A stretch of 64,000 bases of DNA from Gimesia sp. (lineage in GTDB: Bacteria > Planctomycetota > Planctomycetia > Planctomycetales > Planctomycetaceae): contig NZ_JAVJSQ010000005.1 in assembly GCF_040219335.1 (NCBI RefSeq), positions 377,501-441,500 of the forward strand, written 5' to 3'. Made by a program: the position numbers and the translations under genes. How positions within the stretch are numbered: position 1 is the stretch's first letter; each line of letters opens with the position of its first letter. A model generated the notes under the pieces. The model searched no databases. It was not told where the DNA came from and saw only the letters and a list, made by a program, of their open reading frames with translations. Below are positions 46,188 to 60,655 of the stretch, in pieces.

Positions 46188-46264
46188 GAAATGAACGTTT
46201 TGGACGAATTTGTGGTTGTTTTTGTTTTCCTGCTTGCGTATAAATGGTGTAGTAGAAATGAACG
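46188..46264 (+). repeat. Direct repeat GAAATGAACG flanking the sigma-gene promoter
   Basis: GAAATGAACG occurs at 46188-46197 and again at 46255-46264, 67 bases apart start to start. One copy lies just upstream of the predicted -35 and one just after the predicted start site. The segments CGAATTT that follow each copy (46205-46211 and 46263-46269) are also similar. This could be a paired operator. Confidence 0.45.
46216..46244 (+). promoter_or_regulatory. Predicted promoter of the sigma-70 family gene
   Basis: TTGTTT (46216-46221), 17-base spacer, TATAAA (46239-46244). Transcription would start near 46251, upstream of the preferred start codon at 46290 but downstream of an earlier in-frame ATG at 46191, so it helps choose the start. 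Confidence 0.5.
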
Positions 46265-46289
46265 AATTTCGATTTTCAGGAATATGAAA

Positions 46290-47237
46290 ATGATAGTGTG
46301 TTCAAAAGATCATTGTGAGCAATCGTCCCAGCAGCTGGCACAACGTGCCCGTGAAATTCTGCAGGCCGAAATTGACTTTATCCCGAATCCCAGCTTTCAG
46401 GATTCAGATGCGGACGAAGTGATTCTGGGGCAACCCTTGCCTGAGAGTAACACTGAAATTACAGCTGCTGCCTTCACGAAACCGGGCAGCCGGGCACTCT
46501 CGACTCAAATCGCCCGTCTCTGTCGCTCAGAAGTGCTGTCTGCAGCTGACGAGCAGGATCTGTTCCGCAGAATGAACTACCTCAAGTTCAAAGCCAATAT
46601 GCATCGTTGCAAACTCGACCCGGAAGAGGTCGAACCCTGCGACCTGGAGCGAATCGAAAATCTGCTCCAACAGGCAGAGCAGGTTCGCGATCAGATCTTT
46701 CGCTGCAACATGCGACTGGTGGTCTCGATCGTCAAGAAATGCGTGACTCCGGGCGTGAGCTTCGACGAGCTACTCAGTGATGGCTGCCTGACGCTGATAC
46801 ATGCCATCGAAAAGTTCGATTATGCCCGAGGATTCCGTTTCAGTACGTACGCATACCACTCCATTTCGAACTACGCGTATCGAAAAATTGCAAATCGTCG
46901 CAAGGAACGCAACAAATTTAAACAGCTGGGTGAAGAACGCACCCTGGAAGAACTGCAGGAGCAGAAGAATCCGATGATGGTCCGCGCGGTCTGGGATGAA
47001 CTCTCCGACCTGCTCAAGCAGACGATCGACACGCTCGATCAGCGGGAACAGTTTATTGTCCGCAGCCGGTTTGCTCTCGGCAAACATCGCAAAATTCAGA
47101 CCTTTCAAAAACTGGCCGATGAACTTGGAATCTCCAAAGAACGGGTACGTCAGCTTGAACAGCGGGCCGTGGCCAAACTGAGAGCACTCGCAGAAGGATC
47201 CCGTCTGGATGCGATTCGTGAACTCGTCGGCGGCTGA
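46290..47237 (+). CDS. RNA polymerase sigma factor, sigma-70 family (divergent)
   Basis: About 315 residues. Region 2 is readable as 'MRLVVSIVKKC', 'FDELLSDGCLTLIHAIEKFD' and 'GFRFSTYAYHSISNYAYRKI'; region 4 ends with 'ELGISKERVRQLEQRAVAKL', the -35 recognition helix. Region 2.4 differs from housekeeping sigma, so it likely reads a special promoter. Start 46290 is chosen because AGG lies nine bases upstream and the predicted promoter lies between it and the earlier ATG. It is followed after 35 bases by the DUF393 gene and the fatty-acid-modifying operon, and is divergent from a LitR/CarH-like regulator. Confidence 0.87.
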   Translation: MIVCSKDHCEQSSQQLAQRAREILQAEIDFIPNPSFQDSDADEVILGQPLPESNTEITAAAFTKPGSRALSTQIARLCRSEVLSAADEQDLFRRMNYLKFKANMHRCKLDPEEVEPCDLERIENLLQQAEQVRDQIFRCNMRLVVSIVKKCVTPGVSFDELLSDGCLTLIHAIEKFDYARGFRFSTYAYHSISNYAYRKIANRRKERNKFKQLGEERTLEELQEQKNPMMVRAVWDELSDLLKQTIDTLDQREQFIVRSRFALGKHRKIQTFQKLADELGISKERVRQLEQRAVAKLRALAEGSRLDAIRELVGG

Positions 47238-47272
47238 ATATGACACTTACTCAATTACAAGAACGGTGAAAT

Positions 47273-47683
47273 ATGGATCGTGAATACTGTGAAATCGAGG
47301 CCTTCTATGACGGTGACTGTCCGCTCTGCCTGCGGGAAGTCAACCTGCTGAAGCGTTTCGATCGCCGCCACAAGATTCACTTCACTGATATTGCTGCAGA
47401 GGACTTTGATCCAGCAGTTTATGGGAAAACGCAGGCTGAATTTATGGATGAGATGCACGGACGTCTCCCCGACGGTACCTGGATCAGTGGAGTTGAAGTA
47501 TTTCGTCGTCTCTACTCGGCAATTGGTTGTCGCTGGCTCGTGGCTCCGACCCGCTTGCCGGGCATCTCACACAGTCTCAATTATCTCTACAGACATTTCG
47601 CCCGTTACAGGTTAAAATTAACAGGGCGCTGTCAGCAGGGGCAGTGTACAGTGAAGCCGTCTCAAGATAAGGTTCATTCATGA
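47273..47683 (+). CDS. DUF393 (DCC) thiol-disulfide oxidoreductase-like protein
   Basis: A 136-residue protein with the defining 'FYDGDCPLCLREVNLLKRFD' motif (Cys16 and Cys19) and 'IHFTDIAAEDFDP'. The thioredoxin-like family is of uncertain function and is frequent next to membrane-lipid or light-response genes. It begins the operon downstream of the sigma gene; its stop overlaps the next start by four bases. Confidence 0.88.
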   Translation: MDREYCEIEAFYDGDCPLCLREVNLLKRFDRRHKIHFTDIAAEDFDPAVYGKTQAEFMDEMHGRLPDGTWISGVEVFRRLYSAIGCRWLVAPTRLPGISHSLNYLYRHFARYRLKLTGRCQQGQCTVKPSQDKVHS

Positions 47684-49014
47684 AAATTGCCATCATTGGT
47701 AGCGGCATTTCCGGTTTGACGGCTGCCTGGTTTCTGCATCGACAGCACGATGTCACGATCTTCGAAGCGAATAACTACATCGGCGGACACACCAACACGA
47801 TCGAAGTCGATCTGGAGGGGGAGGAACATCCCGTCGACACCGGGTTCATTGTTTTTAACCACCAGACCTACCCGAACTTCACCCGCATGCTGGACCGACT
47901 GGAAATCACTTCACAGCCGACCAGGATGAGTTTCAGTATGAAGTGTGAACGAACCGGGCTCGAATACCGGGGCGCCGATCTGAATGGCTTTTTCGCTCAG
48001 CGAAAGAATCTGTTCAACCCTCGCTTCTTTAAACTCCTGAGTGATATTTTTCGTTTCAACAAACAATCGCTGGCCCTGCTTGAATCGGATAACGATACCC
48101 TGACGGTCGGCGAATACCTCATGCGTGAGAACTACTCCCGCGAATTCATCGATCAGTACTTTCTCCCCATGGGGTCGGCGATCTGGTCCTGCCCGGTAGG
48201 CACTTTCGAACAGTTTCCCATTCGCTTCATCGTGGAGTTCTATCGCAACCATGGCATCCTGGCGATCCGGGAACTGCCTGAGTGGCGTGTGGTTTGTGGC
48301 GGTTCACACCAATATGTCAAAGCGATCACCGCCGACTTTCGAGAGTCAATCCGTCTGCAGACCCCAATTCGCGCTGTCAGGCGTCTCTCGAAAGGTGTGG
48401 AAGTAACTCCGGTCAATGGTGCTCCTGAAGAGTTCGATCACGTGATTTTCGCCTGCCACAGTGATCAGGCTTTGAAAATCCTCGGAAGCGACGTACATCC
48501 GGTCGAACGCGAACTGCTCTCCGCATTCCCCTATGAACCGAATATTGCCCAGCTGCATACCGACACAAGCGTTCTGCCCCGCAGTGAACGTGCCTGGGCC
48601 TGTTGGAATTACTTCATGCCCCGCGGCGAGAATCGCAAAGCAACAATTACCTACAACATGAATCAGCTGCAGAGCCTCGACTCGCAGCATACGTTCTGTG
48701 TGACACTCAATGGTGAAGAGCGGGTCGATTCTTCCAGGGTCATTCGTCGTATCGAGTATGCCCACCCCATCTTTACGATCGAACGGGCTGAGACCCAGCG
48801 GCGTCACGCGGAAGTGATCAATCAGCGAAATACATCGTTTTGTGGTGCCTACTGGGGCAACGGATTTCACGAGGATGGCGTTAACAGTGCCCTGGCGGTC
48901 TGCCGAACTTTACTGGAAACAGAAGACATATGGAAAGCGGAATCTACACCGGCTGGGTTCGACACAGACGACTTAAACCCGTCGAACACAGCTTTCGCAA
49001 TCGAATCTTCCTGA
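47680..49014 (+). CDS. FAD-dependent amine-oxidase-type oxidoreductase
   Basis: A 444-residue flavoprotein. Start 'KIAIIGSGISGLTAAWFLHR' is the dinucleotide-binding motif; 'GGHTNTIEVDLEGEEHPVDT' with the following 'GFIVFNHQTYPNFTRML' is typical of the NAD(P)/FAD oxidoreductases that neighbour DUF1365 and CFA-synthase genes. In Rhodobacter-like furan-fatty-acid loci a related flavoprotein desaturates a methylated acyl chain, so a role in lipid desaturation or oxidation is a fair guess. The coding end overlaps the DUF1365 gene by 85 bases. Confidence 0.87.
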   Translation: MKIAIIGSGISGLTAAWFLHRQHDVTIFEANNYIGGHTNTIEVDLEGEEHPVDTGFIVFNHQTYPNFTRMLDRLEITSQPTRMSFSMKCERTGLEYRGADLNGFFAQRKNLFNPRFFKLLSDIFRFNKQSLALLESDNDTLTVGEYLMRENYSREFIDQYFLPMGSAIWSCPVGTFEQFPIRFIVEFYRNHGILAIRELPEWRVVCGGSHQYVKAITADFRESIRLQTPIRAVRRLSKGVEVTPVNGAPEEFDHVIFACHSDQALKILGSDVHPVERELLSAFPYEPNIAQLHTDTSVLPRSERAWACWNYFMPRGENRKATITYNMNQLQSLDSQHTFCVTLNGEERVDSSRVIRRIEYAHPIFTIERAETQRRHAEVINQRNTSFCGAYWGNGFHEDGVNSALAVCRTLLETEDIWKAESTPAGFDTDDLNPSNTAFAIESS

Positions 49015-49727
49015 TGTACCTTGATCTGGATGAACTCGATTCCGTGTTCGAGGGACGCTGGTGCTGGTCTACCCGTCGTCCGGCTCTGGCCCGGTTTCGC
49101 AGAGCCGATCATCTGGGCGATCCAACCCAACCACTGGGAGAATCGATTCGCAACTTTGTGGCAGAGCAGGGCTATTCCCGACCCGAGGGGCCGATTCGCC
49201 TGCTCACGCATTTGCGGTATTTCGGATTTGTGATGAACCCGGTCTCTTTCTACTACTGTTTTAATCGTGCAGGCACAGACTGGGAAACCGTCGTCGCGGA
49301 AGTGAACAACACGCCCTGGGGAGAACGGCACTGTTATGTGATTTCGCGGAAACAACTGGAAGCAAACGGGGACGATCAATTGATGCAGAAGGTTTTTCAT
49401 GTTTCTCCCTTCATGCCTCTGGATATGCAGTATGGCTGGAAACTGACAGAGCCCCAGCAAAAGCTGACCGTTCATATCGATAACTATCGTGAAAGTGAAA
49501 AAGTATTTGACGTAACGATGCAACTGGAACGTCGGGAGATCACAACCCGTAACCTGTGGCAGGTCCTGCTGACTTATCCGCTGATGACCTGGTACGTGTT
49601 TGCGGCGATCTACTGGCAGGCACTCCGCCTGTGGTGGAAGAAGGTTCCCTTTTATCCCCATCCCAGACATCTCTCGGCCACAGACAATCAAATTACAGGC
49701 ACAGAGCCCAACGCGAGGACCTCATGA
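48930..49727 (+). CDS. DUF1365 family protein
   Basis: A 265-residue protein with the family start 'ESGIYTGWVRHRRLKPVEHS' and 'IRLLTHLRYFGFVMNPVSFY', plus 'HVSPFMPLDMQYGW'. DUF1365 is found next to CFA-synthase-like genes in many bacteria and has no settled activity. Its start lies 85 bases inside the preceding gene in another frame; the N-terminal motif shows that this long overlap is real and not a wrong start. Stop and next start overlap by four bases. Confidence 0.9.
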   Translation: MESGIYTGWVRHRRLKPVEHSFRNRIFLMYLDLDELDSVFEGRWCWSTRRPALARFRRADHLGDPTQPLGESIRNFVAEQGYSRPEGPIRLLTHLRYFGFVMNPVSFYYCFNRAGTDWETVVAEVNNTPWGERHCYVISRKQLEANGDDQLMQKVFHVSPFMPLDMQYGWKLTEPQQKLTVHIDNYRESEKVFDVTMQLERREITTRNLWQVLLTYPLMTWYVFAAIYWQALRLWWKKVPFYPHPRHLSATDNQITGTEPNARTS

Positions 49728-51034
49728 GTACCATCAACGAATCCCCCGAGCTGACCTGGAACGCAACTGCGTCTGCCGGTCTCATGGACACGACCTGCCG
49801 CACACTGTTATTAAAGAAATTACAGTCAATGCAGCACGGCCGGATAACCCTCATCGATGGAGAGCAGGAGCAGCATTTCGGCGATCCGGATGCCGGCTTA
49901 CGAGCCGTTGTCCTGGTGCAGAATCCCCGCTTCTACCGTCGGGCTGTCCTCGAGGGAGGCCTGGGCATTGCACAATCATTGATCGACGGTGACTGGTCCT
50001 GTCAGAATCTGACGGCACTGGTGCGGATCTTCATTCGCAACCTGGAAGTCACCGATCGCTTTGAATGGGGGATGGCCTGGTTCCGACAATGTGCCGCCCG
50101 GCTGGGGCACTGGCTCAGAAGAAATACACGCCTCGGAGCGGCCCGCAACATTCATGCACACTACGATCTGGGGAATGATTTTTACCGGCTCTTCCTGGAT
50201 GAAACCATGAGCTATTCCTGTGGTGTCTTCGAACAGGAGACCGACACCATGCAGGAAGCCTCTTTGAATAAGCTGGACCGCGTCTGCCGGAATCTCAATC
50301 TGAAACCGGGCGATCATCTGCTGGAGATTGGCACGGGCTGGGGAGGGCTGGCCGTGCATGCCGCTCAGTATTATGGCTGTCGGGTGACGACCACTACCAT
50401 TTCACAGGAGCAGTATAATCTGGCGGCCGAACGAGTTGATGCCGCCGGACTCACGGATCGCGTAACACTGCTGCTGAAAGACTACCGCGATCTGGAAGGA
50501 CAGTACGATAAACTGGTTTCGATCGAAATGATTGAAGCAGTCGGTGCCGAGTTCTTCGAGACGTATTTTCAGAAGTGCTCAGACCTGCTCAAGCCGGATG
50601 GCATGATGTTGCTGCAGGGAATCGTAATCAAGGATCAGCGGTTCAAAGAATATCTCAAAAGCGTGGATTTCATCCGCCGCTACATATTCCCGGGAGGCTG
50701 TCTCCCTTCCGTGGCTGCGATCCTGGAAACAACATCGCGGGTAACCGATTTCCGACTCCTGCAACTGGAAGACATCGCTCCCCACTATGCCCAGACACTG
50801 CGCTGCTGGCGGGAAGCCTTTCATGAGCGGATCGACGCGGTCCGCGCGCAAGGCTATTCCGAATCATTCATTCGCATGTGGGATTATTATTTCTGTTACT
50901 GCGAAGCCGCTTTCGAGGAGCGTCAGTGTAACACGGTACAGATGCTGCTTGCTAAGCCGTCCTGCCGTTTCGATCCTGTACGTCATCATGCACTTCGCGA
51001 CTTGACCAAAGAAGCTGAGGAGGTGCTCGCTTGA
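49724..51034 (+). CDS. Cyclopropane-fatty-acid synthase-like SAM methyltransferase (copy 1)
   Basis: About 436 residues. After an N-terminal lipid-binding part come 'NIHAHYDLGNDFYRLFLDET' and 'MSYSCGVFEQETDTM', then SAM motif 'LLEIGTGWGGLAVHAAQYYG' and 'KLVSIEMIEAVGAEFF', all CFA-synthase hallmarks. It would methylate the double bond of a phospholipid acyl chain to give cyclopropane or branched-methyl products. The ATG at 49724 overlaps the DUF1365 stop; a longer frame from 49556 lies inside that gene and is rejected. Confidence 0.9.
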   Translation: MSTINESPELTWNATASAGLMDTTCRTLLLKKLQSMQHGRITLIDGEQEQHFGDPDAGLRAVVLVQNPRFYRRAVLEGGLGIAQSLIDGDWSCQNLTALVRIFIRNLEVTDRFEWGMAWFRQCAARLGHWLRRNTRLGAARNIHAHYDLGNDFYRLFLDETMSYSCGVFEQETDTMQEASLNKLDRVCRNLNLKPGDHLLEIGTGWGGLAVHAAQYYGCRVTTTTISQEQYNLAAERVDAAGLTDRVTLLLKDYRDLEGQYDKLVSIEMIEAVGAEFFETYFQKCSDLLKPDGMMLLQGIVIKDQRFKEYLKSVDFIRRYIFPGGCLPSVAAILETTSRVTDFRLLQLEDIAPHYAQTLRCWREAFHERIDAVRAQGYSESFIRMWDYYFCYCEAAFEERQCNTVQMLLAKPSCRFDPVRHHALRDLTKEAEEVLA

Positions 51035-51825
51035 ATCCCTGGTGGATGATTCTGATCGGCGGGGCAGGCATGTCTGCTGTAATGGGAGTTCTCTGGTTGC
51101 TCCAGAAGCGAACCGGGGATGCAGGCATCGTTGATGTCGCCTGGGGCATGGGCGTCGGCTTGCTCAGTCTGTTTTTTGTCTGGGGAAGTGTGGAAGGCGA
51201 TTTGACCAGGCGGATCATTGTCGCGACGTTGGCTCTGCTCTGGTCTTTAAGACTCAGTGGTTACATACTCTATCGCGTCTTAACCATGCCCGAAGACGGG
51301 CGTTATCAGACCCTCAAAGAGAAATGGGGAACCGCCGCCCAGGGAAAACTTTTCTGGTTCTATCAACTCCAGGCAGTCGGCAGTCTGCTGTTTGCCCTGC
51401 CGATGTTGTTGGCAGCCCAGAGTATGGCTCCGCTGGGATTTCTTGATTATATTGGAATCGTGATCTGGTTTGCTGCTATCTCAGGGGAACTCATTGCCGA
51501 TCAGCAGCTGTCCCGATTTCGTTCAGATCCGCACCAGACGGGGCAGGTCTGTCAGCGCGGACTCTGGCACTATTCCCGGCACCCGAATTACTTTTTTGAA
51601 TGGCTGCACTGGTGGGCCTACGTCTGTCTGGCCATCCAGTCGCCCTGGGGCTGGCTGACAATTCTCGGTCCAATCCTGATGCTGCATTTCATCCTCAATG
51701 TGACGGGAATTCCTCCTACGGAAGCCCAGGCCATCAAGAGCCGGGGCGAAGCCTATCGCGAATATCAGCGGACCACGAGTGCCTTCTTTCCCTGGCCTCC
51801 TAAATCAAAACAGGTGACAACATGA
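51031..51825 (+). CDS. DUF1295 membrane protein (steroid-5-alpha-reductase-like)
   Basis: A 264-residue protein with about six hydrophobic segments and the C-terminal 'GLWHYSRHPNYFFEWLHWWA' signature of DUF1295/ isoprenylcysteine-methyltransferase-like enzymes. The proposed TTG start overlaps the preceding stop (TTGA) and has GAGGAGG eight bases upstream; an ATG 15 bases later is the alternative. Related proteins reduce double bonds of lipids with NADPH. It lies between two CFA-synthase-like genes, which fits lipid modification. Confidence 0.87.
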   Translation: MNPWWMILIGGAGMSAVMGVLWLLQKRTGDAGIVDVAWGMGVGLLSLFFVWGSVEGDLTRRIIVATLALLWSLRLSGYILYRVLTMPEDGRYQTLKEKWGTAAQGKLFWFYQLQAVGSLLFALPMLLAAQSMAPLGFLDYIGIVIWFAAISGELIADQQLSRFRSDPHQTGQVCQRGLWHYSRHPNYFFEWLHWWAYVCLAIQSPWGWLTILGPILMLHFILNVTGIPPTEAQAIKSRGEAYREYQRTTSAFFPWPPKSKQVTT

Positions 51826-52931
51826 AAACTGACATGCTGGTGAATCTGGCCATTGAATGTGTGGAGCGGGGCTGGGTTCCCGACAGTCTGGTCCGACGTG
51901 CCATTCGTAGACTCTGCAGCAAACGGCTCGATAGCCTGGATGGGGGGAGTCCTGCCGCGGATGCAGAGAATCGACGTGCTTTCGTCGAGGCTGCCCTGCA
52001 GAGCCCGATTGCCCTGGTTCCGGAAAAGGCGAACGAACAACATTACGAAGTGCCTGCCGCGTTTTATGAGCAGGTGCTCGGAGCGCGGCGAAAGTATAGC
52101 TGTTGTTACTGGCCGGAAGGAGTGACGACCCTCGACGAAGCCGAGGTCGCCGCTTTGAAAGAGAGCTGCCTGCATGCAGAGCTTGAAGATGGCATGCAGA
52201 TCCTGGAACTGGGCTGCGGCTGGGGCTCGTTGACGCTCTGGATCGCTGAGCATTATCCTCAAAGTCATATCACCGCTGTTTCGAATTCTCATTCTCAACG
52301 GGTTGCGATCGAACAAATGGCGCGGGAAAGAGGCTATGCAGACCGCGTGAATGTGATCACTGCAGACATGAACGATTTCGAACCCGATCAAAAGTTCGAC
52401 CGCGTGGTCTCAGTAGAGATGTTCGAACACATGCGGAATTATGCCCGCCTGTTAAATCGCATTTCCGACTGGCTGGTCGACGATGGAAAACTCTTCGTAC
52501 ATATTTTCTGCCATCGAAACTATGTCTACGAATTCAGTGACAAGAATGCAGACGACTGGATGGCCCGGCACTTCTTTACCGGGGGGATCATGCCCGCCGA
52601 TGACTGGTTTTCCCACTTCCAGCAAGACATGCAGGTCGAACAGCAGTGGCGCTGGAACGGTCGTCACTATCAGCTGACGTCTGAAGCCTGGCTGGAGAAT
52701 CTGGACCAGCGCAGCGCTAAAGTCCTGCCGATCCTGGCAGAAACTTATGGGACACAGCAGGCTCACCGCTGGTGGATGCGCTGGCGTCTGTTTTTCCTCG
52801 CGGTCGCGGAACTGTTCGGCTACCAGTCCGGTGAAGAGTGGTATGTCTCACACTATCTGCTGAGTAAAACGAAGGTGAAGCATGATACCCCGTCACTTCC
52901 TGACAAAGTGACGGAACATTCTCTGCATTAA
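51822..52931 (+). CDS. Cyclopropane-fatty-acid synthase-like SAM methyltransferase (copy 2)
   Basis: A 369-residue protein with 'NEQHYEVPAAFYEQVLGARR' and 'KYSCCYWPEG', SAM motif 'ILELGCGWGSLTLWIAEHYP' and 'DRVVSVEMFEHMRNYARLL'. It is of the shorter CFA type, clearly different from copy 1 at 49724, with Glu of the bicarbonate-binding region conserved as EMFEH. The start overlaps the DUF1295 stop by four bases. It is the last gene of the operon and converges with the hybrid kinase gene, 10 bases apart. Confidence 0.9.
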   Translation: MKTDMLVNLAIECVERGWVPDSLVRRAIRRLCSKRLDSLDGGSPAADAENRRAFVEAALQSPIALVPEKANEQHYEVPAAFYEQVLGARRKYSCCYWPEGVTTLDEAEVAALKESCLHAELEDGMQILELGCGWGSLTLWIAEHYPQSHITAVSNSHSQRVAIEQMARERGYADRVNVITADMNDFEPDQKFDRVVSVEMFEHMRNYARLLNRISDWLVDDGKLFVHIFCHRNYVYEFSDKNADDWMARHFFTGGIMPADDWFSHFQQDMQVEQQWRWNGRHYQLTSEAWLENLDQRSAKVLPILAETYGTQQAHRWWMRWRLFFLAVAELFGYQSGEEWYVSHYLLSKTKVKHDTPSLPDKVTEHSLH

Positions 52932-52941
52932 AACAGGGATA

Positions 52942-55900
52942 TTATTCGCCCTCTGTGGACATCCCCTGCAGATCTTCTCTGACTTGGGGAAGTTCCTGCA
53001 GACAACGTTGCATTTCGATGGAGAGTTCATCGATCAATGCATCAATGTTTTCCAGGTGGTCCTCTGTGCCTGTTTGCTCGATTTCCTGTGACAACTGTTG
53101 CAGGGAGGCTGCACACAGAATACTGGTAGCTCCCTTGAGCGAGTGCGCTGCTTCAGCCACGCCTCGCGCATTGCCCTGATCTGCATACTCGCGAATATGT
53201 GCCACACGTGTTTCACCTGAGCTTTCCAGTTCCTCCACCAACGATTCAATCAGTTCCAGATTGCCGCAGCAAAGCTCAATCAATGCAGCTGTATCTATGA
53301 CGCGGTCACTGTCGATTTCGCGATCAGAAGAGACGACCGTTTCAGTTTTCGCAGATATCGTATGCTGGTGTGATGCTTTCCTGGCAAGGTACTGATCGAG
53401 CAGCTTTCTGAGCTGCGCTTTCTGCACGGGTTTACTGATGTAGTCATCCATGCCGGCTTCCAGGCAGCGTTCCCGGTCTCCTTTGATCGCATTCGCAGTG
53501 AGTGCCACAATGGGGAGGTGCCCTTCAAGCTCCCCTTGCTGTTCCATTTCACGAATTTGGCGAGTGGCTTCCAGCCCGTCCAGTTCCGGCATCTGACAGT
53601 CCATCAGTACCAGATCGTAATTGTGTTGTTTGACTGCTTCGATTGCTTCCAGTCCATTGACCGCTGTATGGCAGAGGCACCCGAACTGCTTCATCAACTC
53701 GGTGACATACATCTGGTTGATGTTGTTGTCCTCGGCCAGCAGAACCGTCGTTGCCGACAGAAATGCGTGTGCTTCCGCCTCCTGATGCGCATCGAGATCC
53801 TGTATGCGAGGCAGGCAGGACTCCTGTTGATACAGATTGCAGAGTACCTCATACAGCTTGTGTCGATTCAGTGGTTTGTGCAACAGGGCAGCAGCGCCAC
53901 TCTCCTGCAGTTCGCTGGCGTTAAGATGTGTTTCCGGCGAACGTGAGATCAGAATGACCCTGGGATCTGAGTCCTTGAGTTCGTGGGCCAGAACCCTGCC
54001 ACTCAGGTCCGGCAGTTCCAGATCGGTCATCACCAGGTCAATGATCTCTTGGTTGTCGTGTGCCCGTTCCAGAATCGAAAGGGCTTCCGCGACAGATACG
54101 GCGAGGTCTGTTTTAAGTCCCCATTCTTTGGCGAAATCGTGCAGGATCTGCAGGCACTTTTGATTGTCGTCGACGATCAGGACCCGTTTCCCAGCCAGCG
54201 GTGAGCGAATCGGGAGTGCCACCGAAGTGGGCGAGATGATTTCAAAGGGAATCTCAAACCAGAAGGTCGAACCTGCGCCTTCCTGGCTTTCGATACCAAT
54301 TGAACCCCCCATTAATTCGACCAGGTTGCGGGAGATGACCAGCCCCAGACCACTGCCGCCATAATTGCGTGTGGTCGAAGCATCGACCTGCGTAAATGAC
54401 TGGAAAAGGCGGTCCATTTTATCTTCAGAGATACCAATCCCCGTATCACTCACGGTGAAGCGGATTGTGATCTGTTGGGGCTCCTGTTCGATGGCTTCCG
54501 CACGCACGGAAACTTCACCTGTTTCAGTAAACTTGATTGCGTTGCCAACAAGGTTCACCAGTACCTGCCGTAGTCGATAACTGTCTCCCTTAAGAATCAG
54601 TCGCGTGGCTGGATCAATAGAACAGGGAAGCTCCAGACCTTTCTCAGCAGCCCGCCAGACCATGGTGCTCATGGTGTCCATCAGCAGCTTTTCGACGTCG
54701 AACTGATGCAGATCCAGGTCCAGTTTGCCGGCTTCGATTTTGGAGAAGTCGAGAATATCATTGATCAGGCCCAGCAGCGACTCACCACTGTTCCGGCAGG
54801 CATCGACGAAGTCCTGCTGCTGCCGGTTCAGGTTTGTACCGGCCAGTAATTCTGTCATGCCGATCACTCCATTGAGTGGCGTACGCAACTCGTGACTCAT
54901 ATTGGCCAGGAAATCACTCTTGGCCCGGCTCGCTTCTTCCGCGGCCTGTTTGGCGTCTTTCAGTTTTTCTTCGGTCTCTTTCTGCGCGGTGGCATCCAAA
55001 ACGAAACAGAGACAGAGATCCTCCGCTTCATCCAGGCGCGTCATACCCAATACTACGGGAACGCGACTGCCATCTTTACGGTAGTATTCTTTTTCGATCG
55101 GTTTTGCTGCACCGGTTTCCAGCATTTCCTGCAACACTTCCTGGTCGCGCTGCTGCCATTCTGTCGGCGTCAGCTCCTGGCAGTTGATCAGCCCGGCTTC
55201 CAGGTCGTCGGCAGTATAACCCAGAATGCGGAGCAGTTCGTCATTCGCCTGTTCGACACTGCCGTCAAAGCGACAGGTCATGATTCCCAGGATATCGGCC
55301 TGTCTCAATTTGCTGAACTGAGAATTGGCCATTCGCAGGGCGAACTCCGACTGTTTACGGGCCGTCACATCGACCTGGGTGGCGATGAAGTTCAGCAGGA
55401 TGTCATCGTCATCGAGCACCGGATCGATCTTGAGTTCGATCCAGTACTCGCGTCCGTCGCGATCGTAATTCACAATTTCCGTCGCGATGCTTTCTTTTTT
55501 CTGCAGGCTGTCTCTGATGCTGGTAATCGTATCTGAGTTCGCTTCCGGACCACGTAAAATATCACAGAGGTGCTGTTCCATCACCTCGTTGAGCGTGTAA
55601 CCACTCAGCGAGGTAAAGGCATCATTGACCCATTCAATATTACCCTGGGCGTCGGAGATGATCACCGAATGCTTGGTTTTACTGGCAACCAGAGACAGTT
55701 TTTTGACCTTCTGGTGATACATCTGCAATGCTTTATCGGCTTCTTTTCGCCCCTGGATATTCTCGATCAGGAAGATGAAGTGCCGTGGTTCTCCAGTTGG
55801 CAGACGGACCAGTGAAACGGTCATGTTCGTCCAGACGACCGCTTGATCCTGTGTAAGATATCGTTTTTCAACCGAGTAGGAATCGATTTCACCTGCCAGT

Positions 55901-57075
55901 AATTTTGCGATCTGGACCAGGTCTGCTTTCAGATCGTCCGGGTGAGTCAGGTTCTGCCAGTTCTTTTCCAGCAGTTCCTGATCTGTGTATCCCAGCAGAT
56001 CGCATAGTCCTTGATTGAACCGCAGCCAGCGACCATCGGGAGACACGTGGGCGATTCCCATCGCGACCTGCTCAAAGGTGCTGCGATAGTTCTGCTCACT
56101 TTCGGAAAGGGCATTTCTCTGGATCTGTTGTTCTGTGAAATCATGGCAGACGCCGACAAACAGTTTCGGCTCACCAATATCATCAAAGACCGCATGCCCC
56201 TGAGCATAGATGTAATGTACCGATCCATCCCGGTAAATCACGCGATATTCACAACTGTATGGAGTGCCGGTATCGACGCTGTTATTAAAACAGGTTTCGA
56301 CACGTTCCCTGTCAGCGGGATGCAGCCGTTTGCTGAAATCTTCGTAGTGCAGTTCCGTTTCCTCGGCAGGAACATCGAACATCTCCCGCGTCTGCCGGTC
56401 CCAGTTGAGCAGGTTGGTTTTCAGATCGAGCTCCCAGACGCCGATCTGTCCTGCTTCCAGCGCATAATCCAACCGTTCCTGGCTCTCCTGCAGCTTCGTA
56501 CCTAACAGCGCCGCGGAAGGAAGTTTGAGTGCCTCGGGAATCAGACGGATTAATACGAAGACCGTAATCCAGGAGACGATCGCGGTACTGGCCTTAATCA
56601 ACCCGGAGAAACGGTAAACGGGCCACCAGAAGATGCTCGCCTCAATCAGGTGTCCAAATCCGCAGAACAGAATGAAAGCGGCAAACAGCCAGATAGTTCG
56701 TGGGAAGGGGAGATCTTTGCGCTGCAACAGGAAGTAGAGCAGCATGACCGGAATTGTGAAATAGGCACCGAAAATGGCAATGTCAGACAGGATATGCAGC
56801 CAGCCCACATCACTCGACCAGGTACCACAATACCAGCGCTGCGGGTAATCGTTGGTGTCGAACAGTTTCGAGAAAAACGTAACCGGCCCTTCGGCTTGCA
56901 GCTCTGGTTTGGCAGCTGCTTGCGCACAATGACCGCCAGAGCAACTTTTTGCAGTCGCGGGTGCGGATGTTTCGGCAGCGATTGCAGAGGCCATCATCCC
57001 CGGCAGCAGTAAACACAACAGGCAGATAAGCCAGAGTTTTCTGGCGCGAACTTTGAGTACAGTATCCGGACGCAT
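52942..57075 (-). CDS. Hybrid histidine kinase with ethylene-receptor-like membrane domain, four PAS domains, two receivers and HPt
   Basis: 1377 residues. Order: signal or membrane helix (13-33), Cys/His-rich exported segment (CSGGHC, 45-50), three-helix ethylene-receptor-like domain (about 92-186), four PAS/PAC units (about 203-318, 325-445, 460-573, 585-700), HisKA with SHELRTP (His728), HATPase ('NLVGNAIKFTETG', 'GGSGLGLVISRNL'), receiver 1 (Asp1018), receiver 2 (Asp1159) and HPt with HSLKG (His1311). In the membrane domain Asp98, Tyr105, Pro109, Cys138 and His142 match the copper/ethylene-binding set of plant ETR1 with identical spacings, so a small-molecule or metal sensing role is likely. 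A complete internal phosphorelay is present; no separate response regulator is adjacent. Confidence 0.92.
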   Translation of the reverse strand: MRPDTVLKVRARKLWLICLLCLLLPGMMASAIAAETSAPATAKSCSGGHCAQAAAKPELQAEGPVTFFSKLFDTNDYPQRWYCGTWSSDVGWLHILSDIAIFGAYFTIPVMLLYFLLQRKDLPFPRTIWLFAAFILFCGFGHLIEASIFWWPVYRFSGLIKASTAIVSWITVFVLIRLIPEALKLPSAALLGTKLQESQERLDYALEAGQIGVWELDLKTNLLNWDRQTREMFDVPAEETELHYEDFSKRLHPADRERVETCFNNSVDTGTPYSCEYRVIYRDGSVHYIYAQGHAVFDDIGEPKLFVGVCHDFTEQQIQRNALSESEQNYRSTFEQVAMGIAHVSPDGRWLRFNQGLCDLLGYTDQELLEKNWQNLTHPDDLKADLVQIAKLLAGEIDSYSVEKRYLTQDQAVVWTNMTVSLVRLPTGEPRHFIFLIENIQGRKEADKALQMYHQKVKKLSLVASKTKHSVIISDAQGNIEWVNDAFTSLSGYTLNEVMEQHLCDILRGPEANSDTITSIRDSLQKKESIATEIVNYDRDGREYWIELKIDPVLDDDDILLNFIATQVDVTARKQSEFALRMANSQFSKLRQADILGIMTCRFDGSVEQANDELLRILGYTADDLEAGLINCQELTPTEWQQRDQEVLQEMLETGAAKPIEKEYYRKDGSRVPVVLGMTRLDEAEDLCLCFVLDATAQKETEEKLKDAKQAAEEASRAKSDFLANMSHELRTPLNGVIGMTELLAGTNLNRQQQDFVDACRNSGESLLGLINDILDFSKIEAGKLDLDLHQFDVEKLLMDTMSTMVWRAAEKGLELPCSIDPATRLILKGDSYRLRQVLVNLVGNAIKFTETGEVSVRAEAIEQEPQQITIRFTVSDTGIGISEDKMDRLFQSFTQVDASTTRNYGGSGLGLVISRNLVELMGGSIGIESQEGAGSTFWFEIPFEIISPTSVALPIRSPLAGKRVLIVDDNQKCLQILHDFAKEWGLKTDLAVSVAEALSILERAHDNQEIIDLVMTDLELPDLSGRVLAHELKDSDPRVILISRSPETHLNASELQESGAAALLHKPLNRHKLYEVLCNLYQQESCLPRIQDLDAHQEAEAHAFLSATTVLLAEDNNINQMYVTELMKQFGCLCHTAVNGLEAIEAVKQHNYDLVLMDCQMPELDGLEATRQIREMEQQGELEGHLPIVALTANAIKGDRERCLEAGMDDYISKPVQKAQLRKLLDQYLARKASHQHTISAKTETVVSSDREIDSDRVIDTAALIELCCGNLELIESLVEELESSGETRVAHIREYADQGNARGVAEAAHSLKGATSILCAASLQQLSQEIEQTGTEDHLENIDALIDELSIEMQRCLQELPQVREDLQGMSTEGE

Positions 57076-57364: not shown

Positions 57365-59743
57365 TTATTCGAGTGGTTTCAACTCCCCTTGTGGAGACGG
57401 ATTTACAGTTCGGTTGGTCTCCTCAATCAACTGCTGTTCAATCTCTTTAATTCGCAGCTCAAATGACTGCATTTGTTCTGGTTCCTCTTTGATCTCCGCT
57501 TGGATACGAGCCACTTCCTGCAGGGGTTCCAGCAGGTTGAGCAGAGCCTGAGATCGTTTCTGGTAATCCTTCTTTTCTGCCTTGATCACAGAGGGCAGGG
57601 CAGCCAGATAGACCATTGTCACAACCAGCAGGGCGATCAGGCTGGAATGTCTCAGCAGGAGAGTTCCCTCTTGCCAGATCTGCGAATCCGAGGCATTCGA
57701 CAAACGTGACCGGCGCAGGAGAGACCAACTGAGTAGAATTGACAGAGACAGCAGGACGGCGAGCCCTTCTCCATGATGAGACGTCCACTGCGGATAAATC
57801 CAGATCCATGTGGGGATCTGTTTTTGCGGTTGCCGGTTCCAGACGGCCAGCGCGAGAAATGGATTCTCATCAGCCACGGAAATATCACCGCCGAACCAGG
57901 TTTGTATTTCTGCAGGATTCAGTGAGCCTCGGAAGACCATAGAACCGGCGGGAACGATCAATAGAGTGACCAGGAAAACGAGACCACAGACAGTCAACTT
58001 GCGACGTGCAGACCACCCGGGGGAACATAAAAAACGAATCACGATGAAGACCGCCGTTCCATAAAGAACGGCGAGCAGCAGTGAAACCGGGATGAACAAT
58101 GCAAGGGAAGCGTGTAGCCAGGACTGTTCCACAATTGTCTGCAGGGGTCTATATTGAAAACAGATCAGGACAGGAATCAAGAGAACCAGCAGCAGCGAAA
58201 TTAATGGGATCCAGGTAATCTTTCCTCGCTTACGGATCATTCGTAGAGAAAAGGTTAATATCAGAATCAGACTGACCCAACCGAGCGTCAGCAGCAGGAT
58301 GTTCCAGACACGTTCCGGAAGGGCATCCGCCGGGATTACTCCCCAGAGAAACAGGCTCAGGCCCACTCCAGAAAACCAGGCAACCAGGGTTCGCCACCAG
58401 CCCGGTCGAGACGCGGTACCTGTTTCACACCAGCCAGCCCAACGAGCAGTCAACACCAGCAACAGTGAGAGTAGAAACAACAAGAGAATAAAAGGTTGAC
58501 TGAGTTCAGTCAGCGTTGTTGCGAGGGGCGCCTCGAATGCGGGTTGTGTGTCCTGCTGGGCATGATAACGGTCCAGGGCTTCCATAAAGATATTTCGCTG
58601 CAGCCACGCCTGATGCAGATCCTGCTTCAGTTTAACAGCTTCCTCAGGAGTGAACGACTCCGGATGTGTCTGCAACACCTGGAATGAATGTCCCAGTCCC
58701 AAAGTGCGGAAGCTGTATTTAAAGAATGTCAGTTCATACAGATTGTCACGGCCCTGCAACTGCTCTGCGATTCGCAATTCACGGTCTGCATTCCGTATCA
58801 CTGAGGCGTACTTTTTTTGCAGCAGATCGGATTTGCAGGAATTGTCCAACCAGCGTAGCAGTCGAATGGCAATCATTTCAGCGGGATAAATGGCATTCCG
58901 CCCTTCTGCAGCTTTGATCTGCTCGCCCCGCGGGAGTGATGTCTGTTCTAAAAAGGCCAGGGTCGCCGACCAGGTAATCGCCCCCACGTTCAGGCTTGTT
59001 TTTTTCTGTCCTGCCTCCAGTCGTTGTTCAGCCTGTGCATAGATTTTGGGGTTCGTGATTTTCAGAGTCAGACGATATTCGTCATCCCAGACCGGTTCGG
59101 CGGACTGCTGATAGAACCTGATCGCTGCCAGGTAGTCGTAGAGTGCATTCTCCGGATCATGGGCCGCACACTCCTCCAGCAGCGACAGCCAGTCCTCGGT
59201 GGACGGTTCCCACTCTGATTCATCGCTCAGCACAAACAGCAGTAACGCGCGCTGTCTCCAGAAATCGACATCTTCCGGGGCAAGTTGTGTGGCGATCGCA
59301 GCCTGTTTCAGACAGGCAGCGCGACACAGAGCCTGATATTCTGCTTCTGCCCGATCTCTGAGTTCAAACAGGTTTCCAGAAAGTTCCCTCGCGTCTTCAG
59401 TCGTTAAGATGTCCCGCTTGAGGAACTCATACTGCGGCTCGGTGAGCATCCAGGCTGCCCCCAGCGCGACCTGGGCGTCGGTCCGGGTTGCGGGGATTTG
59501 CTCAACCTGCTGCAACCAGTATTGCGCCTGTTCCTCGGGAAGTTCCTCGCTGACTGACGTCGTTTGCCCCAGCAGACGCCAGGCTTCCGCTTTCCAGTCA
59601 TGCCACAGCGAATGCCAACCTGAAGGGGACCCGCTGACGACAATAGCCAGACGCAGGCCGAGCACCACGATGACCAGGCACAAGATCAGCCGGGGCCACT
59701 TTGATTTTCCTTGCCGGTCTGTTTCCACTGAAACGCTTTGCAT
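57365..59743 (-). CDS. Large membrane protein, unknown function
   Basis: A 792-residue protein. One transmembrane helix near residues 18-37, then about 370 mostly soluble helical residues with repeat-like character (TPR-like pattern 'AAIATQLAPEDVDFWRQRAL'), then about eight hydrophobic segments (residues about 425-740) and a charged C-terminal tail with heptads (residues 745-785, likely coiled coil). No enzyme motif was recognised. It is followed on the same strand by two small membrane-protein genes upstream and may be part of one unit with them. Confidence 0.8.
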   Translation of the reverse strand: MQSVSVETDRQGKSKWPRLILCLVIVVLGLRLAIVVSGSPSGWHSLWHDWKAEAWRLLGQTTSVSEELPEEQAQYWLQQVEQIPATRTDAQVALGAAWMLTEPQYEFLKRDILTTEDARELSGNLFELRDRAEAEYQALCRAACLKQAAIATQLAPEDVDFWRQRALLLFVLSDESEWEPSTEDWLSLLEECAAHDPENALYDYLAAIRFYQQSAEPVWDDEYRLTLKITNPKIYAQAEQRLEAGQKKTSLNVGAITWSATLAFLEQTSLPRGEQIKAAEGRNAIYPAEMIAIRLLRWLDNSCKSDLLQKKYASVIRNADRELRIAEQLQGRDNLYELTFFKYSFRTLGLGHSFQVLQTHPESFTPEEAVKLKQDLHQAWLQRNIFMEALDRYHAQQDTQPAFEAPLATTLTELSQPFILLLFLLSLLLVLTARWAGWCETGTASRPGWWRTLVAWFSGVGLSLFLWGVIPADALPERVWNILLLTLGWVSLILILTFSLRMIRKRGKITWIPLISLLLVLLIPVLICFQYRPLQTIVEQSWLHASLALFIPVSLLLAVLYGTAVFIVIRFLCSPGWSARRKLTVCGLVFLVTLLIVPAGSMVFRGSLNPAEIQTWFGGDISVADENPFLALAVWNRQPQKQIPTWIWIYPQWTSHHGEGLAVLLSLSILLSWSLLRRSRLSNASDSQIWQEGTLLLRHSSLIALLVVTMVYLAALPSVIKAEKKDYQKRSQALLNLLEPLQEVARIQAEIKEEPEQMQSFELRIKEIEQQLIEETNRTVNPSPQGELKPLE

Positions 59744-60127: not shown

Positions 60128-60655
60128 TTAAGTCCAGGCTTCAGCCTGTTCCCTACGCTGACATCGATACTGCATGCCCAGCAGGACAAAACCGATGATG
60201 GGCAGCACGATGTCCGTGTAAAAAATCAGCCCGGCATTTCCGGGGGCGAAGTTATGGGCTGTGATCATCTGGTAGATATGGCCACCCGCAGCGCCCAGTA
60301 GAAACATCGACGGCCCGACCACCGCGGCGGCCCGCATGCCCAGACTGCCACGGAATGCCAGAAAGCCCACCACAGCATAACCCAGGCTGGCGGTCCCCAC
60401 TTCAAACTGAAACGGACTCTGGGACCACCCGATGAAACTGGCTGCCATCTCGCCGAAGAACGAATGCATGATGAAGTTATAGAAGAAAGAACAGCCTATG
60501 GAAAAGAATAGAAACCAGGCAAACAGGGACTCAACAATGTTCGCTCGTGACAATGGTCGCGGTTTTCTCAAGAGAGAAAATCCGGAAACGATCAGCCCCA
60601 GGATCAGAAAGGTGAGAGTAAAATTTTCCATGACAAATTGAATCAGCTTACCCAT
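60128..60655 (-). CDS. DUF6790-like membrane protein
   Basis: A 175-residue protein with four to five hydrophobic segments and a conserved-looking 'GTASLGYAVVGFLAFRGSLG' and 'GAAGGHIYQMITAHNFAPGN'. The resemblance to DUF6790 membrane proteins is from memory only. Function unknown. It is the first gene of the small-membrane-protein pair. Confidence 0.72.
   Translation of the reverse strand: MGKLIQFVMENFTLTFLILGLIVSGFSLLRKPRPLSRANIVESLFAWFLFFSIGCSFFYNFIMHSFFGEMAASFIGWSQSPFQFEVGTASLGYAVVGFLAFRGSLGMRAAAVVGPSMFLLGAAGGHIYQMITAHNFAPGNAGLIFYTDIVLPIIGFVLLGMQYRCQRREQAEAWT

Follow-up and report, generated by a model that had tools for sequence, protein, structure and literature searches.

The window analysed here, a stretch of 64,000 nucleotides of Gimesia DNA, encodes on its reverse strand a hybrid histidine kinase of 1377 amino acids (52942..57075) whose membrane domain belongs to the ethylene receptor family. 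On balance, this protein is probably a planctomycete homologue of the ethylene receptors, in which a Cu(I) site would serve for the sensing of ethylene or a similar olefin, and a phosphorelay would carry the output. Its family membership, its seven binding residues, its domain order and the position of its relay residues within their motifs were observed directly.

The open frame and its Pfam matches give the domain order leader, ETR1_N, four PAS, HisKA, HATPase_c, receiver, receiver and Hpt, all on the reverse strand. By plain hydropathy, residues 1-35 (56971..57075) form a signal-peptide-like hydrophobic leader, which would place the N-terminus outside the membrane. The leader is followed by a putative extracytoplasmic cysteine pair, Cys45-x4-Cys50 (CSGGHC, 56926..56943), recognized by comparing the sequences of relatives, and by a single N-terminal cysteine, Cys83, in the motif RWYCGxW (56827..56829), placed by alignment with relatives and with AzoEtr1. 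ETR1_N, the ethylene-binding family domain, occupies residues 90-185 (56521..56808). The PAS array extends over about residues 223-700 (54976..56409, ends approximate), where PAS_3 matched four stretches at E up to 0.1 and three at E up to 0.001, and sensory_box matched four. Next come HisKA (residues 718-783, 54727..54924), HATPase_c (residues 830-945, 54241..54588), two Response_reg stretches, the first at about residues 966-1085 (53821..54180, ends approximate) and the second at residues 1111-1226 (53398..53745), and Hpt (residues 1279-1351, 53023..53241). The phospho-acceptors of these domains, His728, Asp1018, Asp1159 and His1311, all lie within the expected motifs, as in a hybrid kinase with an internal phosphorelay. 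Among the 25 NCBIfam families shown for the kinase, the kinase-type models stayed under their own cut-offs, except for the PAS sensory_box domain. Nine PHROGs families matched the whole kinase, and the best stretch of each lay outside the membrane domain.

The Pfam family PF25487 (ETR1_N, Ethylene receptor 1-like N-terminal domain) matched residues 90-185 with an E-value of 9.4e-36 and 122.4 bits, for a cut-off of 27, over model positions 2-97 of 97. No second Pfam family was listed over these residues at E up to 0.1, so that no different membrane-sensor family was found there. Plain hydropathy places the three hydrophobic stretches at about residues 93-118, 122-150 and 156-190. A search of solved structures by sequence gave no match at E 10.

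Seven residues needed for ethylene binding by ETR1 are described in PMC11819568 and PMC6682694, and D25, I35, P36, I62, C65 and H69 are named as determinants (PMC6586836 or PMC11819568). All seven are present in the kinase by alignment: Asp98, Tyr105, Ile108 and Pro109 in helix 1 (ETR1 D25, Y32, I35 and P36; 56749..56784), and Ile135, Cys138 and His142 in helix 2 (ETR1 I62, C65 and H69; 56650..56673). Wang et al. reportedly found in 2006 that Y32 is among the ETR1 residues required for ethylene binding. An earlier, sequence-only reading of 56518-56808, which corresponds to kinase residues 90-186, had named five of the seven, and Asp98, Tyr105, Pro109, Cys138 and His142 were indeed found at those positions, with gaps of 7, 4, 29 and 4 and the motif CGFGH; Ile108 and Ile135, equivalent to ETR1 Ile35 and Ile62, come in addition. 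As a check it had proposed a profile search, in which PF25487 was matched and a different membrane-sensor family did not appear. Its description of an ETR1-type domain on a hybrid kinase with four PAS domains and an internal phosphorelay is borne out by the profile match, by residue conservation and by the comparison with AzoEtr1. In a crude check with ideal-helix angles, D98, Y105 and P109 fell within 40 degrees, and C138 and H142 were 40 degrees apart.

The strongest indication that the domain of the window kinase could bind ethylene is its match with AzoEtr1 of Azospirillum brasilense, residues 1-130 of which, expressed in Pichia, bind 14C-ethylene saturably (PMC11819568). AzoEtr1 was located by a protein search of a plasmid collection with the window domain, which returned 18 records, all under 60% identity, and its sequence was taken from strain Sp7. 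The start codon of the Sp7 frame lies inside the primer printed in PMC11819568, and frame residues 35, 75, 79 and 98 are D, C, H and K, in agreement with that paper. The window domain is identical to AzoEtr1 at 53 of 124 positions (43%), without any gap. D35, Y42, I45, P46, I72, C75, H79 and K98 of AzoEtr1 are spaced as in the window kinase, both proteins have a lysine in helix 3 and one N-terminal cysteine, and in both the domain is joined to PAS plus histidine kinase (PMC11819568). They differ in that AzoEtr1, with 525 amino acids, has one PAS and a kinase domain, with a separate 135-aa receiver gene adjoining (PMC11819568), whereas the window kinase unites four PAS, two receivers and Hpt in one chain behind a CX4C leader and has, among its eight neighbours tested, no response regulator next to it. 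The motif is CGTTH in AzoEtr1 and CGFGH in the window kinase. In a second Azospirillum record, A. brasilense MTCC4038, left out of the comparison, the AzoEtr1 frame is only 207 amino acids long, versus 525 in Sp7, with the same first 130 residues.

ETR1 of Arabidopsis, compared through its published residue numbers, belongs to the same PF25487 three-helix family with the seven residues equally spaced, and has CGATH in place of CGFGH. Plant receptors have two N-terminal cysteines (PMC6682694), whereas the window kinase has the single Cys83, and their signal goes to a Ser/Thr kinase, for the most part independently of histidine kinase activity (PMC11819568). SynEtr1 (slr1212) of Synechocystis and GeiEtr1/2 of Geitlerinema, compared by description, are bacterial receptors which, like the window kinase, possess an ethylene-binding domain, but their architectures differ from it. 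Cyanobacterial receptors also have one N-terminal cysteine, which may replace the disulfide of the plant receptors (PMC6682694). SynEtr1 signals by a phosphorelay, as is proposed for the window kinase, and has a known response regulator and a small RNA (PMC11819568).

The metal, the ligand (ethylene or another small molecule), the sign of the response, the partner and the physiology are predicted from homology, in the following way. Cu(I) is most likely coordinated by Cys138 and His142 in the three-helix domain at the N-terminus, where Asp98 would orient the histidine, and ethylene or a similar small olefin would enter this site from the membrane interior. The helix bundle of the dimer would rearrange on binding, and the PAS array would relay this rearrangement to the kinase core. 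Ethylene is reported to inhibit the kinase activity of ETR1, the evidence for SynEtr1 being indirect (PMC11819568); by analogy with these two receptors, ligand binding may lower kinase activity. Phosphate would travel from His728 to a receiver aspartate (1018 or 1159), from there to His1311 in Hpt, and then to a response regulator that is a protein of its own; this could be a receiver-HD-GYP protein like the one encoded next to a paralogue on contig C44 of the same genome. An output of that type would lower c-di-GMP, and attachment or biofilm could be affected. In A. brasilense, disruption of the receptor alters biofilm (PMC11819568).

We examined how widely the domain and its site occur. ETR1_N scored over its curated cut-off in 42 of 392 sampled Planctomycetota genomes and in none of 14 control genomes. 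Within the genus of the window it was found in seven of ten genomes, and the three without it count against an ethylene reading. The source genome holds three copies, in the window, on contig C44 and on contig C29, with the motifs CGFGH, CGLGH and CGTVH, respectively; the C44 domain is 81% and the C29 domain 62% identical to that of the window, and the C29 copy, counted from the first ATG within its frame of 839, has 806 amino acids. In a scan of named genomes there were 548 matching stretches; 462 of them encode a relative, and the best 80 of these 462 were kept. By title they span seven phyla (Planctomycetota, Verrucomicrobiota, Bacteroidota, Cyanobacteriota, Myxococcota, Pseudomonadota and Omnitrophota), and many are MAGs. 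The nearest named record among them is a Gimesia MAG (L051), 90% identical in the domain and 65% over the kinase, a likeness which, together with the gene order that they share, fits the Gimesia origin of the window. All seven determinants are kept in 77 of these best 80 relatives, the C138 and D98 columns being biased because the scan patterns included one or the other of those stretches; the exceptions are L081 (I135V), L108 (Y105F) and L129 (P109S, I135V). Among 32 of the 57 Planctomycetota rows, namely the best-scoring loci and the two own paralogues, with 25 weaker or unreturned rows left out, D98, Y105, I108, P109, C138, H142 and K161 are invariant, and I135 is present in at least 90%.

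The architecture scan covered 76 proteins, from 75 of the 80 loci plus the window (L052, L089, L097, L119 and L127 left out), and found ETR1_N in 76, HATPase_c in 64, HisKA in 60, a receiver in 42 and Hpt in four. The counts for HisKA and HATPase_c indicate that ETR1_N is mostly the input domain of histidine kinases. One of the scanned proteins, that of L081, has a frame of only 89 amino acids. In a tree of the quick kind, built on 98 columns only and with 50 of 107 inner branches open, the window copy falls into a set of 13 Gimesia-type and Pirellulaceae-type rows with an SH-aLRT support of 98%, and because of this grouping we see no sign of a recent horizontal origin. Three Planctomycetota genomes sharing one family code (L006, L007 and L009) have another form of the domain, with WLFxISD...CGSTH or CANTH, which is 40-41% identical to the window domain; by eye, it presumably resembles the cyanobacterial and plant form more.

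The signal-peptide-like leader with its CX4C pair is new here as a clade feature. The pair precedes the domain in all 15 Gimesia/Blastopirellula clade copies read (the window, L004, L051, L052, L053, L131-L138, L143 and L144), its second cysteine lying 33 residues (12 copies) or 38 residues (3 copies) before the common Cys83. A hydrophobic leader stands before it, measured by hydropathy in the window and seen by eye in the other copies. Among the 80 named relatives, CX4C upstream of the domain is found only in the clade members L051, L052 and L053 and in none of the 77 others; in 46 of the 80 the first start codon is at most 36 residues before the domain. Cys83, for its part, is present in 79 of the 80 and in AzoEtr1. 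The CX4C pair could bind Cu(I) or form a disulfide.

This pair is one of the features that would suit a different use of the same fold. It could be that the copper site is kept for another ligand, such as Cu(I) itself, another alkene, CO, a small hydrophobic molecule or a redox state, and if so, the kinase would be a membrane copper or redox sensor. The pair outside the membrane in 15 of 15 clade copies, as a possible Cu(I) ligand, would fit, as would the 21 different CGxxH motifs among 67 alignment rows, as if the pocket differed, and the CGFGH, CGLGH and CGTVH of the own-genome copies, which may mean different ligands. Thr68 of ETR1, a threonine also in AzoEtr1, is a glycine in the kinase and likewise in 18 of the 67 rows, which counts against an ethylene reading, and no family member with CGxGH is known to us to bind ethylene. 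However, a sensor of copper alone would have no use for Ile108, Pro109 and Ile135, which belong to the seven ETR1 residues kept in 77 of 80 relatives, and a copper-protein family was found in none of the eight neighbouring proteins tested. On the side of the ethylene reading, the source genome encodes Cu-type P1B ATPases (TIGR01511 over its cut-off in four frames), but they prove nothing, because this family matches 14 of 14 control genomes, 13 of them over the cut-off. A ligand other than ethylene or a similar olefin is regarded as somewhat unlikely.

It is quite improbable that the membrane domain serves mainly for anchoring and dimerisation, the signal being read by one of the four PAS domains through haem, flavin or another cofactor. 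Four PAS stretches do follow the membrane domain, and SynEtr1 reportedly senses both light and ethylene (PMC11819568). Nevertheless, D, Y, I, P, I, C and H are kept across seven phyla, which is unexpected for an anchor, and PAS is present in only part of the scanned proteins, versus ETR1_N in 76 of 76, these loci having been chosen by ETR1_N. A chance or convergent likeness of the three-helix domain is already refuted by the PF25487 E-value and by the gap-free identity with AzoEtr1, and its probability is negligible.

For the ethylene or olefin receptor that we favour, an output partner was sought among the neighbouring genes. Convergent to the kinase, on the forward strand, a neighbour scan found genes for an amine oxidase, DUF1365, CMAS, DUF1295 and a second CMAS-type methyltransferase (47680..52931). 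A sigma factor gene (46191..47237) lies about 6 kb from the kinase. Upstream of the kinase, both on the reverse strand, lie genes for a 792-aa protein without a Pfam match (57365..59743) and for a DUF6790 membrane protein (60128..60655). The sigma factor together with the amine oxidase, DUF1365, CMAS, DUF1295 and CMAS genes (46191-52931) resembles clusters of other bacteria for modified fatty acids under singlet-oxygen control. Of eight Gimesia-type loci read, five (L131-L134 and L051) share this arrangement of the kinase and its flanks; the outer end is cut in L131 and L051, and the kinase is shorter in L134. No lipid-gene match was found in L135 and L136 (18 kb read each) or in L052 (7.5 kb read), where DUF6790 alone was found near the kinase, along with a match to the protein at 62418 in L135 and L136. 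Because the genes are convergent and these three loci have no lipid-gene match, we do not claim a functional link between the kinase and the CMAS/DUF1295 lipid cluster, despite the order kept in five loci. All eight Gimesia-type loci have DUF6790 close to the kinase, but only two of the 80 named loci do (L051 and L052).

None of the eight kinase neighbours tested proved to be a response regulator gene, the sole regulator being the sigma factor, and this counts against the main reading. Elsewhere, the widest neighbour cluster, present at 22 of the 80 loci, appears by eye to be a small receiver protein. Its ten nearest members have 134-154 amino acids and start within 13 bases of the kinase end, which by eye parallels the 135-aa receiver gene adjoining AzoEtr1 (PMC11819568). 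Another neighbour cluster occurs at 14 of the 80 loci.

The only hint at an output, likewise a new detail, comes from the C44 paralogue (L004 3404-7493). Its end is overlapped by four bases by a gene for a receiver plus an HD domain (L004 2325-3407), assigned from Pfam and the letters and of HD-GYP type by eye, which hints at a c-di-GMP output. This gene is 98% identical in both siblings read (L143 and L144), and its protein found two partial matches, 35-38% identical, in the 80 named loci (L055 and L113). HD_5 matches are present at six places in the source genome. Between its membrane domain and its first PAS, the paralogue has an interrupted frame, with a 10-base gap relative to the two siblings, both intact; the interruption may be due to a sequencing error. 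It could further be supposed, but we consider it unlikely, that the Gimesia/Blastopirellula subfamily loads copper through the CX4C leader and passes algal or plant ethylene on to c-di-GMP through the receiver-HD-GYP partner. A plant-type hormone would then govern whether these surface-living bacteria settle or leave.

Ethylene-binding domains are well described in cyanobacteria and proteobacteria, and "other bacterial phyla" are mentioned (PMC11819568, PMC7700396). The literature on bacterial ethylene sensing, as far as these sources reflect it, centres on cyanobacteria and plant-associated proteobacteria. A search of titles and abstract starts in the open literature found no paper on ethylene receptors in Planctomycetes; reviews may list planctomycete homologues. 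The window kinase adds to a family already known from bacteria, and for that reason it is no new kind of receptor. With the intact site present in Planctomycetota, Verrucomicrobiota and Bacteroidota, ethylene or a similar gas may be sensed far beyond plant-associated bacteria. The planctomycete homologues also provide proteins in which the known binding-dead changes can be tested.

Viral contigs (IMG/VR) were scanned as well with the domain alignment, and 15 loci were obtained. The domain stands alone in 13 of them, in frames of 122-160 amino acids; L036 is a kinase, and in L043 (3848-4906) ETR1_N is joined to a STAS domain, that is, a non-kinase output, on a contig from the viral collection that may be viral or host DNA. 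L040 and L041 share an identical protein, as do L045 and L046, so that not every viral row counts as independent. All nine viral-contig proteins tested with Pfam contained ETR1_N, and PHROGs gave no family at E 0.01 for eight viral ETR1_N proteins. Over 17 viral or phage rows, L036 included, the cysteine, the histidine and both isoleucines are present in 17, the tyrosine in 16, and the aspartate and the proline in seven each. A limited literature search (titles and abstract starts) found no paper on phages carrying ETR1_N.

Among 19 flanking proteins from eight of these contigs, tail, endolysin, terminase, portal or integrase families were found in six contigs (L037, L038, L040, L046, L047 and L050) and in neither L039 nor L044. 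In L037, L038 and L047 the domain is no more than 2 kb away from endolysin genes, and in L040 the domain gene is placed between the terminase and portal genes. A holin-like, decoy or metal role is possible for the viral ETR1_N proteins. The cultured Maribacter phage Molly encodes a 289-aa protein with ETR1_N (E 1.5e-16; L146 3893-4762, Molly_1), its gene lying directly before an amidase gene, and by sequence likeness a similar gene occupies that position in Maribacter phage Colly, again beside an amidase gene (L149 2432-3301, Colly_1).
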